From: Selenomonas sp. F0473
Lineage (GTDB): Bacteria > Bacillota > Negativicutes > Selenomonadales > Selenomonadaceae
DNA length: 64,000 bases
Direction: 5' to 3'
NCBI RefSeq assembly: GCF_000315545.1
Contig: NZ_JH992902.1
Location: forward strand, 469,280-533,279
Part shown: piece by piece, positions 37,639 to 48,614 of the stretch
How the letters are laid out: each line of letters begins with the position of its first letter
Numbering within the stretch: the first letter of the stretch is position 1
The notes under the pieces: generated by a model
The model's input: only the letters and a program-made list of their open reading frames with translations
The model's database searches: none
What the model was told of the DNA's origin: nothing
Made by a program: the position numbers and the translations under genes

Positions 37639-38427
37639 TCAGTTAATCAATTCCATGCGCTCGGCACGGTCGATATAGCTCTCAATGCGCGCGAGCGCCT
37701 CCGGACGCGCGACCCGGCGGCCGGATTCGAAGAATGTGCAGCGCGCCGTGCGCGCTCCCTCGGGCAATGTCGTCAGCCCCGCGCGCCGTGCCAATTCCTC
37801 CACCGTGCCGTCGTTGCCGTCGGCAAAGGTCATCGTTTCCGGCAGGAGGTTACGCAGCGTGTCTTTGAAATAGTTAAAATGCGTGCACCCAAGCACCATC
37901 GCAGAATACTGCGTGAGATCGAACGGACGGAGCGCATCGCGCAGATATTCCTCCACGCGCGGCGAGACGAACTCCCGATGTTCTGCAAACTCGACAAGGC
38001 GCGGGAGCGGGAGAAGATCGACAAGATGTTTCGCATCGTACGTATCGATCAGCCGCTGCAGCTTCTCCCCGCGCACGGTGATCGGTGTGCCCGTAACGAG
38101 AACGCGGCGCGTTCCGTCTGCATCCAGCGCTTTTTTCACTGCCGGCTCCATCCCGATGATGGGGATGTCATAAAGCCGGCGCATCTCGTCCGCAGAAACC
38201 GACGTCGCCGTATTGCAGGCGACAACGATAGCCTCCGCCCGCTCTTTGTCTATGAGGAATCGGAACGCCGCGCGGACAAACCCGCGCACCTCGGGCACCG
38301 TCTTTGTCCCATAGGGGACATGATCACGGTCGGCGAAGAACAGGAACTCCTCGTCCGGCAGCGCCCGACGCGCATGGCCGAGCACCGTCAGCCCGCCAAG
38401 CCCCGAGTCAAACAGGGCAATGCGCAT
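37639..38427 (-). CDS. murI: Glutamate racemase
   Basis: Makes D-glutamate for peptidoglycan. The 262-residue protein starts MRIALFDSGLGGLTVLGHARR. The two catalytic cysteines are in VVACNTATS near residue 74 and VLGCTHFNYF near 185. The ATG at 38427 has AGGAG 8 nt upstream; an ATG at 38460 lies nearer the promoter without a site. It has its own promoter directly after the terminator of the structured RNA. Confidence 0.96.
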   Translation of the reverse strand: MRIALFDSGLGGLTVLGHARRALPDEEFLFFADRDHVPYGTKTVPEVRGFVRAAFRFLIDKERAEAIVVACNTATSVSADEMRRLYDIPIIGMEPAVKKALDADGTRRVLVTGTPITVRGEKLQRLIDTYDAKHLVDLLPLPRLVEFAEHREFVSPRVEEYLRDALRPFDLTQYSAMVLGCTHFNYFKDTLRNLLPETMTFADGNDGTVEELARRAGLTTLPEGARTARCTFFESGRRVARPEALARIESYIDRAERMELIN

Positions 38428-38463
38428 ACGCTCAACTCCTTTCTGCACCGCATGATACAAAAT

Positions 38464-38493
38464 ATATTACAGCAAATCCGCCGATTCAGTCAA
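38464..38493 (-). promoter_or_regulatory. Promoter of murI
   Basis: Minus strand TTGACT (38493-38488), 18-nt spacer ending TG, TAATAT (38469-38464). It starts right after the U-tract of the upstream RNA terminator. Confidence 0.75.
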
Positions 38494-38521
38494 TAAAAAA
38501 AGACACATTGCAAACATGTCT
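38494..38521 (-). terminator. Terminator of the structured RNA
   Basis: Minus strand 21-nt hairpin from AGACATG to TGTGTCT with nine pairs (two G-U) and a 3-nt loop, followed by TTTTTTTATTG. It ends the RNA gene and insulates murI. Confidence 0.88.
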
Positions 38522-38759
38522 TCTCACTGATATAATGTCCGCAAGGCGCTGTTAGACGCACAGCGGTAGGCGGTCGGCTCTTGCCCCAACAGCAAGAATG
38601 GGGCGAGCGCCATGAATGAGACGAATGTAACGCGCCGTTACTTTTTATCGTATTGGTCGCTCTTTTTACAAGAAAGCAGCCGCCCCCAGCTGCCAACTTT
38701 AGGCGGTTCATTCCGGTTTTACCGTATGGGGCTGACCGTCTGCCGACAGCGCCTTTTCT
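38494..38759 (-). ncRNA. Unassigned structured non-coding RNA, about 266 nt
   Basis: A stand-alone transcription unit with no supported protein. A TTGACG-17-TATAAT promoter predicts a start near 38759. AAGGCGCTGT at the 5' end pairs perfectly with ACAGCGCCTT near the 3' end (38746-38755 with 38543-38552). The stem continues through AGACG/CGTCT and CAGC/GCTG separated by small internal loops. Internal hairpins include GTAACG-GCG-CGTTAC, GCAGC...GCTGC, CGGT-AAA-ACCG and GCTC-GCCCCA...TGGGGC-GAGC. A strong terminator follows. It does not show the hallmarks of RNase P, tmRNA, SRP RNA or the cobalamin riboswitch. A lineage-specific 6S-like RNA is possible. Confidence 0.75.
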
Positions 38760-38765
38760 GCGCTC

Positions 38766-38794
38766 ATTATAGACGCTTACCTCAGTTCCGTCAA
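38766..38794 (-). promoter_or_regulatory. Promoter of the structured RNA
   Basis: Minus strand TTGACG (38794-38789), exactly 17-nt spacer, TATAAT (38771-38766). This is one of the best promoters in the window, implying a strongly made RNA. Confidence 0.88.
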
Positions 38795-38853
38795 GGCTCC
38801 GAGCCAAACGCGCCTTCCTTTATGGCATGAATTTATTGCAAGTTAGGATATTT

Positions 38854-40209
38854 ATGAAACGTCGCCTAAGAAAAAAAGAATATCTATTGGTCGCCTCCAT
38901 GCTGTTCGGCTTGCTCTTCGGCGCGGGCAATCTGATCTTCCCCGCCGCGATGGGGCAGGCCGCGGGCAGCGAAATGATCCCCGCGCTCGTCGGATTCTGT
39001 ATCACGGGCGTAGGGCTGCCGCTCCTCGCCGTCACTGCAATGAGCCTGTCCGCAAGCGAAGACCTCTTTGCCATGGGGGCAAAGGTCGGCCGCAGCTTTT
39101 CCTATTTCTTCACCTGCGCGCTCTACCTATGTATCGGACCGCTCTTTGCGATCCCGCGCACAGCGACCGTTTCCTTCCAAGTGGGCGTCGTCCCTTTCGT
39201 TTCCCCCGCGGGGCAAAGCGCGGCGCTCCTCGTCTTCTCTCTCCTTTTCTTCGCCGTCACGCTCTGCTTCTCCTTTCGCCCGTCCGGGATTCTAACGTGG
39301 GTGGGCAAGGTGCTTACGCCGCTCTTTTTATTTTTCCTCGGTATCCTCATCTGCGCCGCTGTGCTCAGCCCGATGGGCGGCGCTGCGGCGTCCCCGCCGA
39401 CCGAAGCCTACGCGTCGCACAGCTTTTTTAAGGGACTGCTCGAGGGCTACAATACGATGGATGTGCTCGGCGTCCTCGCCTACGGCAATATCCTCATTCG
39501 TTCGGTTCGCCTGCTCGGACTTTCGGAACCGCGCGATATTTCGTACGGAACGATCGTCTCGGGCTCCTTCAGCGCCCTGCTGATGGTCGCCGTCTATGGC
39601 GCGCTCACCTATGTCGGCGCACAGAGCCGCAGCGTCTACGGCATCGACGCGAACGGCGGCGACGTGCTCCATCATATCGCCCTGCACTACTTCGGCGACT
39701 TCGGCAGTATCCTGCTCGGCATCACGATCACATTCGCCTGCCTCAAGACCTCCGTCGGTCTCATTACCGCCTGCAGCGCCGCCTTTGCGGGGCTTTTCCC
39801 GCGCGCGTGTTCCTACCGCGTCTATGTGATTTCATTCTGCCTGTTCTCCTGCGCCGTCGCAAATGTCGGGCTCAGCCGCATCATCGACTACGCGCTCCCC
39901 GCGCTGTACTTTCTGTACCCGATTTCGATGACGCTGATCATCCTATGCCTCCTCGAGGCCCGGATCGGCTATCGGCGCAGCGTATTTATCTGCGGGATCG
40001 TCGGCACGAGCGCCGCGGCTATATTCGACCTCCTACGCGTCCTGCCGCCCGCCGCGGGGGACATTCTGCCCGCGTATGCCCTGCTGTGCGCTGTCGGAGC
40101 GGCGCTCCCGTTCTCATCGCTCGGCATGGGCTGGATGCTCCCCGCCGCCGCAGGGATCTTAATCGGCACATGCGCCGCATATATCCGGGATCGTCGGTCC
40201 GCAAAATGA
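38854..40209 (+). CDS. brnQ: Branched-chain amino acid transport system II carrier protein
   Basis: Sodium- or proton-coupled carrier for leucine, isoleucine and valine, 451 residues with about twelve membrane segments. Family blocks are LLFGLLFGAGNLIFPAAMGQAAG near residue 20 and DVLGVLAYGNILI near 205. I chose ATG 38854, which follows AGGA at 5 nt; the ATG at 38827 has no binding site. It is divergent from the structured RNA and ends shortly before tRNA-Ser. Confidence 0.93.
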   Translation: MKRRLRKKEYLLVASMLFGLLFGAGNLIFPAAMGQAAGSEMIPALVGFCITGVGLPLLAVTAMSLSASEDLFAMGAKVGRSFSYFFTCALYLCIGPLFAIPRTATVSFQVGVVPFVSPAGQSAALLVFSLLFFAVTLCFSFRPSGILTWVGKVLTPLFLFFLGILICAAVLSPMGGAAASPPTEAYASHSFFKGLLEGYNTMDVLGVLAYGNILIRSVRLLGLSEPRDISYGTIVSGSFSALLMVAVYGALTYVGAQSRSVYGIDANGGDVLHHIALHYFGDFGSILLGITITFACLKTSVGLITACSAAFAGLFPRACSYRVYVISFCLFSCAVANVGLSRIIDYALPALYFLYPISMTLIILCLLEARIGYRRSVFICGIVGTSAAAIFDLLRVLPPAAGDILPAYALLCAVGAALPFSSLGMGWMLPAAAGILIGTCAAYIRDRRSAK

Positions 40210-48342: not shown

Positions 48343-48614
48343 CCATAGACCCCTCTTGGAATCAATGAATCCCCTTCCTGTCGCTCGCAGGTCTGTGCCA
48401 AAGCACACGGGTGACTGTCAAAACAGGCAGTTCTCCTGGCTCGGTTCATCGCTTGCCCGCGTCTTCCCAAGAAATCCTAACGTCTCTCAGTGACATATTG
48501 CAGGTTCGCTCCCCTCACAGTGGCGGGACCGCGCCGGCTCATCCGGCTTCTCTATTAAGCGTGCGCCTGCAGGCGCCGCACCTGTCTCCCCCTGATTTAG
48601 TTATACGTCCTAAC
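48313..48614 (-). promoter_or_regulatory. Cobalamin riboswitch controlling cbiK
   Basis: Minus strand RNA with the cobalamin aptamer hallmarks in order. ACAGGTGC is near 48585. AGAGAAGCCGG then GCCGGCGCGGTCCC follow, and CCCGCCACTGTGA is the conserved core. Near the 3' end are GGGAAGACGCGGG, GAGCCAGGAGAACTGCCTG and a final pairing arm. A terminator-like hairpin follows, so control is probably transcriptional: B12 turns cbiK off. It is the only cobalamin riboswitch I find in the window. Confidence 0.92.

Follow-up and report, generated by a model that had tools for sequence, protein, structure and literature searches.

The window analyzed here is a 64-kb stretch of the Selenomonas sp. F0473 genome. 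Within it, brnQ and murI lie head to head, and a first-pass annotation made from the letters of the sequence had placed a strongly promoted, structured RNA of about 266 nt, with no supported protein, on the minus strand between them. We compared the locus with related sequences and assigned the features listed below, in which the names toxin and antitoxin follow the interpretation that we reach.

37639 to 38427, minus strand: murI, glutamate racemase family (Pfam Asp_Glu_race, 61 bits)
38494 to 38759, minus strand: candidate antitoxin RNA, as described in the first-pass annotation; start at about 38759, end near 38668 or at the U-run at 38494
38508 to 38536, plus strand: predicted toxin-mRNA promoter, TTGCAA-17-TATAAT with an extended -10 (10/12)
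38528 to 38771, plus strand: whole element, from the toxin -10 box to the antitoxin -10 box (covariance model R1, 169.8 bits, E = 8.2e-38)
38544 to 38575, plus strand: 5′ arm (38544-38552 and 38564-38575) of the predicted 5′-3′ long-distance pairing of the toxin mRNA (fold, and covariation in 20 copies)
38580 to 38607, plus strand: predicted Shine-Dalgarno hairpin, GCCCC/GGGGC (predicted fold and alignment)
38612 to 38830, plus strand: decayed toxin open reading frame (ORF), which starts MNETNVT, then departs from the hydrophobic frame and is without the usual stop; it reads 72 amino acids (aa)
38678 to 38708, no strand assigned: central hairpin CCGCC...GGCGG, with a core nearly invariant in 20 copies; possible terminator of either RNA
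38734 to 38754, plus strand: 3′ arm of the predicted pairing that closes the toxin mRNA; the same stretch, on the minus strand, forms the conserved 5′ end of the candidate antitoxin RNA
38766 to 38794, minus strand: predicted antitoxin promoter, TTGACG-17-TATAAT (11/12 consensus matches)
38854 to 40209, plus strand: brnQ (Pfam Branch_AA_trans, 426.5 bits)

The near-consensus minus-strand promoter of the first-pass annotation is present as described, reading from 38794 to 38766, and murI, which was said to have its own promoter, is preceded by a promoter-like site (TTGACT-18-TAATAT, 9/12). On both strands of positions 38000 to 39200 we counted 4 promoter-like sites, versus 0.6 in shuffled sequence. 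The two promoters of the element face each other. Agreement with the σ70 consensus averaged 10.54 of 12 positions for the antitoxin-side promoter in 165 copies of the element (control, 6.67) and 8.98 of 12 for the toxin-side promoter in 163 copies (control, 6.66). Compared within each copy, the antitoxin promoter scored higher in 125, the two tied in 24, and the toxin promoter scored higher in 14. Type I toxin-antitoxin systems commonly pair a strong antitoxin promoter with a weaker one for the toxin.

The region downstream of the minus-strand promoter is structured, as had been claimed, with a predicted fold of -95 kcal/mol (z score, -2.5) for the window copy. The length of about 266 nt is less certain: the central hairpin at 38678-38708 could stop the RNA near 92 nt. 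This short version folds no better than chance (z score, -0.85), and in the minimum-energy fold of the window copy the same stretch is paired otherwise than as the central hairpin. We scanned for terminators strictly, requiring at least three G-C pairs, a rule from which weak terminators could escape. The central hairpin scored as a minus-strand terminator in 18 of 162 copies (4.2 in shuffles), a weak signal, and as a plus-strand terminator in 3 of 162 (1.2 in shuffles), which leaves the latter role unsupported. Beyond the toxin promoter, 25 of 163 copies have a terminator-like minus-strand hairpin, versus 0.4 in shuffles. The hairpin and U-run that had been proposed as the terminator are visible in the window copy at 38522-38494, but the strict scan did not count them; in our reading, the hairpin was missed because it has only two G-C pairs.

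No Rfam family reached its gathering score at the locus, in agreement with the earlier statement that the RNA is unassigned; a permissive scan returned one match, on the plus strand, with an E value of 1.2. Ten loci with other copies, ranging from Selenomonas to Clostridia, also had no Rfam match at the element. A likeness to 6S RNA (RF00013) had been suggested on the basis of a rod-like shape with paired ends, which 6S and the element do have in common. We rejected this assignment: the locus has no 6S match, the genome's own 6S match lies elsewhere (C1:1704683-1704857, 38.8 bits; gathering score, 46.4), and a 6S match was present in all 60 genomes searched, above the cutoff in 49. Across 14 genomes of the genus, 6S scored 38 to 57 bits and fell under the gathering score of 46.4 in 8, so annotation may miss it. 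Elsewhere in the window, a cobalamin riboswitch lies at 48409-48600 on the minus strand (102.4 bits).

We used blastn to compare the stretch with 60 relatives and found matches in 22 of these genomes. A second copy in the same genome is 67% identical, a close relative (G003) has three long matches of 68 to 77% identity and three shorter ones, and a genome from another family of the class has seven matches. Matches in the same genome and in relatives indicate that the RNA belongs to a repeated family. The covariance model R1 was built after this detection from 20 sequences; the window copy is one of them, and its match to R1 is by construction. That match, at 38528-38771, is the only significant one in the window, and the genome as a whole has six copies with E values below 1e-4. 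With a threshold of E = 0.01, R1 matched at least 42 of the 60 relatives, with at least 18 matches in the richest genome and with tandem arrays. It also matched at least 129 of 252 genomes of the class and at least 43 of 398 genomes of the phylum, including 34 that do not belong to the class; all of these counts are lower bounds, 36, 8, and 5 candidates having been scored per genome for the relatives, the class, and the phylum, respectively. Among the matches listed are Selenomonas artemidis, S. flueggei, S. infelix, Centipeda periodontii, Anaerovibrio lipolyticus, Sporobacter termitidis, and Butyricicoccus faecihominis, as well as several assemblies of Lachnospiraceae and Oscillospiraceae. 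An element this widespread in the class and also present in Clostridia is not the lineage-specific RNA that had been suggested as a possibility.

A pattern search gave at least 80 loci among 118 stretches, 58 of the 80 with an R1 match of at least 50 bits. Betaproteobacterial pattern matches (L099, L104, and L142) were taken as chance, as they had no R1 match up to an E value of 1. One follow-up set consisted of 99 loci of our own choosing; among the loci outside this set were L065 to L068, L200 (which repeats L026), and 16 regions, L251 to L266. Four copies stand in tandem at G002:C1:26945-28052, and close pairs occur at G003:C11, G012:C1:550704-551228, G025:C87, and G031:C1:227359-227958. 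Two element queries had no match in plasmid and phage collections, and one peptide query had none in the plasmid collection. All seven IMG/VR contigs with the exact motif (L276 to L282) have an R1 match, and some copies of the element may ride on proviruses. At L025 (G040:C6:3686441-3686662), an apparent transposase gene, recognized by eye, directly follows the toxin ORF.

The plus strand of most copies encodes a small peptide. A hydrophobic ORF of 20 to 40 aa led by a Shine-Dalgarno sequence was found in 154 of 165 distinct copies (window copy counted), compared with 1 of 165 reverse complements and 15 of 825 shuffled sequences; the test allowed 17 to 40 aa. The set of 165 leaves out L013, one partial match of A2 (L236), all A3 matches below 50 bits, and 2 of the 70 A3 matches of at least 50 bits (L081 and L132, truncated by contig ends). 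In the two groups large enough to test, pN/pS was 0.26 (23 distinct sequences) and 0.41 (58 sequences), and third codon positions are the most variable. We conclude from these codon patterns that the peptide ORF is under purifying selection in the two groups tested.

The window copy is among the 11 of 165 that by this test lack a Shine-Dalgarno-led hydrophobic ORF, whereas the other five copies in the same genome have one. Its frame opens with MNETNVT, as in intact relatives, and then diverges, and the usual stop is missing. The own-genome paralogue encodes MEIYDFLSLVFLVTICIVALRA, and the closest relative, G003, encodes MNETNVTLLLFIVLVLLLTRK at the matching site between brnQ and murI. The claim that there is no supported protein is therefore correct for the window copy, but the opposite strand in relatives encodes a conserved small hydrophobic peptide. 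Because of this peptide, a type I toxin-antitoxin locus is the best reading of the element.

Several types can be distinguished among the peptides; a hydrophobic core is common to them, and a basic end is frequent. We searched 15 of them against family libraries. The peptide of a Mogibacterium copy passed the cutoff for Hol_Tox (Pfam PF16935; 25.5 bits, cutoff of 23.3), and two more matched this family below the cutoff. None of the five Selenomonadaceae-type peptides matched anything in Pfam or NCBIfam; in Pfam, 5 of the remaining 10 had no match, and 2 had only weak matches to unrelated families. Three of the 15 matched ComI or PepG1, far under the NCBIfam cutoffs; PepG1 is a named type I toxin. 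An identical anatomy would result from a nontoxic small membrane peptide with a regulatory role, held under antisense RNA control. Some small membrane proteins modulate transporters or kinases, the length of only 20 to 40 aa would suit such a role, and the peptides are putative toxins. We nevertheless regard this reading as unlikely, given the many copies per genome, the tandem arrays, the broken copies, the different peptide types within one RNA scaffold, and the resemblances to Hol_Tox, PepG1, and ComI, all of which are typical of type I toxins.

We then asked which of the two overlapping RNAs owns the conserved fold. The end pairing reported earlier is present (38544-38552 with 38746-38754); closure of the ends comprises 21 pairs in the window copy (9 plus 12; -39.5 kcal/mol) and 22 in the paralogue. 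The ends are inverted repeats, so the pairing can form on either strand. G-U pairs are tolerated in an RNA helix, and the opposite strand then has an A-C mismatch at that position. In a MAFFT alignment of 20 copies (A1), the end helices read on the plus strand contain 54 G-U and 6 A-C cells, or 24 and 6 without two fixed columns. Of 148 copies, 132 have the stronger duplex energy on the plus strand and 16 on the minus strand, the 148 being the 165 cleaned copies minus 17 without a recognizable motif. In pairing, native partners outperformed those taken from other copies both on the plus strand (113 of 124 rows) and on the minus strand (105 of 124); these 124 rows, of 181, were kept by a motif filter that allowed low-scoring A3 rows. 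The copies share descent, and P values of the native-partner and strand tests overstate their independence. One strand test used a model-fitted alignment, and we placed weight instead on the tests with the MAFFT alignment and with the 165 copies.

Covariation was measured in the same MAFFT alignment. The structure accounts for paired bases in 95.9% of cells, versus 37 to 46% with slid partners, although it is favored over the slid versions by having been derived from the alignment itself. Pairs changed on both sides numbered 12, compared with 6.3 in shuffles, and this number was reached in 0 of 500 shuffles. The plus-strand fold is well beyond chance in the window copy (z score, -4.3), and its z score in the own-genome paralogue is -7.0. 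The first-pass annotation had presented the end pairing as a feature of the minus-strand RNA. The strand tests disfavor ownership by that RNA and indicate that conservation acts on the pairing mainly in the plus-strand RNA. We conclude that the conserved structure is mainly that of the putative toxin mRNA. The minus-strand RNA may have the end-pairing fold too, since its native partners were better in 105 of 124 rows and its duplex was stronger in 16 of 148 copies.

These results bear on two further explanations. The element could be a small, MITE-like mobile element, with inverted ends that serve transposition and promoters that are passengers. Its inverted ends, its dispersed and tandem copies, its presence at two and absence from seven of nine brnQ-murI sites, and its occurrence in seven IMG/VR contigs would all fit, and spread of this kind is compatible with the toxin-antitoxin reading. 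DNA inverted repeats, however, have no reason to favor G-U over A-C on one strand or to retain a codon-selected ORF; as the sole explanation, mobility is contradicted by the codon-level selection, and we consider it very improbable. The second explanation is a stand-alone, lineage-specific structured RNA that is made from the minus strand and acts in trans, the plus-strand features being incidental. In its favor are the strong minus-strand promoter, the minus-strand fold (z score, -2.5), and the lack of an intact peptide in the window copy, which by itself could act in this way. Against it stand the plus-strand ORF of 154 of 165 copies, under purifying selection in both groups tested, the preference of the conserved pairing for the plus-strand RNA, and the wide spread of the family, and we judge it very unlikely.

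What comparison among copies shows is the presence of both promoter sites, an ORF under selection, end pairing and the strand that it favors, and how numerous and widespread the family is. Judged from these comparisons of sequence, the window element is very probably one copy of a chromosomal, multicopy type I toxin-antitoxin family, with a decayed toxin frame. Of the earlier description, an unassigned, strongly promoted candidate gene for a regulatory RNA survives, one that encodes no intact protein in the window copy; the likeness to 6S and the restriction to one lineage do not survive.

How transcription, toxicity, and antitoxin action would fit together, and how long the two RNAs would be, we infer as follows. 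The plus strand would make a toxin mRNA of roughly 220 nt, the 5′ end of which would pair with the 3′ end while a second hairpin holds the Shine-Dalgarno sequence. Closed in this way, the full-length mRNA should stay untranslated until the 3′ arm is removed or displaced. In relatives, the mRNA would encode a peptide, mostly of 21 to 34 aa, resembling a single-pass membrane peptide. The minus strand, usually from the stronger promoter, would make an antisense RNA that starts inside the 3′ arm of the mRNA. This RNA would be complementary to the stretch of mRNA that it covers and would pair with the 3′ arm and other shared parts, most likely blocking translation or triggering cleavage of the toxin mRNA. 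The antisense RNA and the toxin mRNA also have similar 5′ ends, down to the GCCCC stretch by which the Shine-Dalgarno sequence would be masked, and so direct action at the ribosome site through the GCCCC-bearing end of the antisense RNA is conceivable. Since the toxin frame of the window copy is broken, this locus would now make the antitoxin RNA and a leader but no toxin.

The window copy keeps both promoters and the end pairing despite its broken frame, and we compared its surroundings with the same site in other genomes. The genes brnQ and murI are head to head in 9 of the 10 loci examined (own genome, G000, counted); at the tenth, L289, murI was not found beside brnQ. The element is present at two of the nine sites (G000 and G003) and absent from seven. 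All seven element-free sites have a perfect brnQ promoter (12/12) located 49 to 53 nt before the ATG. In G000 and G003 this promoter is missing, and the best plus-strand promoter is that of the toxin (10/12). Since the toxin promoter is the best one where brnQ's own is gone, brnQ may now depend on it and be transcribed through the element, in which case the antitoxin RNA would be antisense to the brnQ leader. A tentative extension is that the locus has been captured. On arrival, the element would have displaced the brnQ promoter; the toxin promoter would now drive brnQ through the folded toxin leader; the need to keep making this transcript would then have cost the locus its toxin frame; and the antitoxin RNA would remain as a cis-antisense regulator of a branched-chain amino acid transporter. 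We consider this sequence of events possible, if doubtful, as weaker promoter-like sites lie closer to brnQ (8/12 in G000 and 9/12 in G003) and the toxin ORF of the G003 element at this site is intact.

Two other observations concern this site. The stop of the broken 72-aa frame (38612-38830) overlaps an in-frame ATG upstream of brnQ (ATGA, 38827-38830), an arrangement that resembles translational coupling and may be due to chance. In L288 (G010), the gap between brnQ and murI is longer by about 400 bases, which hold a possible small ORF; R1 has no match there up to an E value of 0.01.

Type I toxin-antitoxin systems with closed toxin mRNAs are already known; what appears to be new, on present comparisons, is a family that combines mirrored RNA ends with interchangeable peptides. 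The family was not found in Rfam 15 at any copy scanned, nor among the titles and abstracts listed from the open literature on type I systems, which leaves most subscription papers outside the search. It adds a large RNA-plus-peptide family, present in at least 129 of 252 genomes of one class and in Clostridia, that Rfam 15 did not report at the copies scanned and whose peptides were mostly missed by family libraries. With several peptides on one scaffold, it is a good system for asking how RNA control, rather than toxin sequence, defines a type I family. Counting G-U against A-C cells is a simple way to assign a conserved fold to one of two overlapping RNAs. The brnQ site, if our reading of it is true, is a testable case of a toxin-antitoxin locus turning into a regulator of a host gene.

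Among known systems, AapA/IsoA of Helicobacter pylori has several chromosomal copies, and IsoA lies differently relative to its toxin mRNA. Unlike IsoA, the antisense RNA of the element would begin in the 3′ arm of the mRNA and mirror the 5′ sequence of the toxin mRNA. PMC6733600 describes closed toxin mRNAs for hok/sok and AapA/IsoA and, for AapA/IsoA, a short toxin ORF, 5′-3′ closure, Shine-Dalgarno sequences held in hairpins, and an antisense RNA, features that the element has or is predicted to have. This likeness is one of description and not of sequence, the Rfam and family scans having given no such match.

In par/Fst, as predicted for the element, the toxin and antitoxin genes are convergent; the two RNAs of par/Fst share a bidirectional terminator. 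We dropped such a terminator as a defining part of the element, given the strict-scan counts for the central hairpin (plus strand, 3/162 and 1.2 in shuffles; minus strand, 18/162 and 4.2). The central hairpin of the element has weak U-tracts, the outer repeats of the element are inverted, and no Rfam family matches the element. Pfam and NCBIfam contain Fst/Ldr models, and none of the 15 peptides had a match named Fst or Ldr in these libraries. What the element would share with par/Fst, a member of the Fst/Ldr group, is a 5′ stem-loop that hides the ribosome-binding site and an RNA antitoxin (PMC7472228). Hol_Tox (PF16935) is a putative holin-like toxin, and its Pfam entry describes the peptide alone, with no RNA partner. 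For Clostridia, a review (PMC6563280) reports that, by homology search, known type I toxins were detected in no more than two species. The toxins of Clostridioides difficile and their relatives in that review are 30 to 56 aa long and the putative toxins of the element 20 to 40 aa, the families being compared by description. As in CD0956.2-RCd10 of C. difficile, described in the same review, the element has overlapping, convergent putative genes for an antitoxin and a small hydrophobic toxin.
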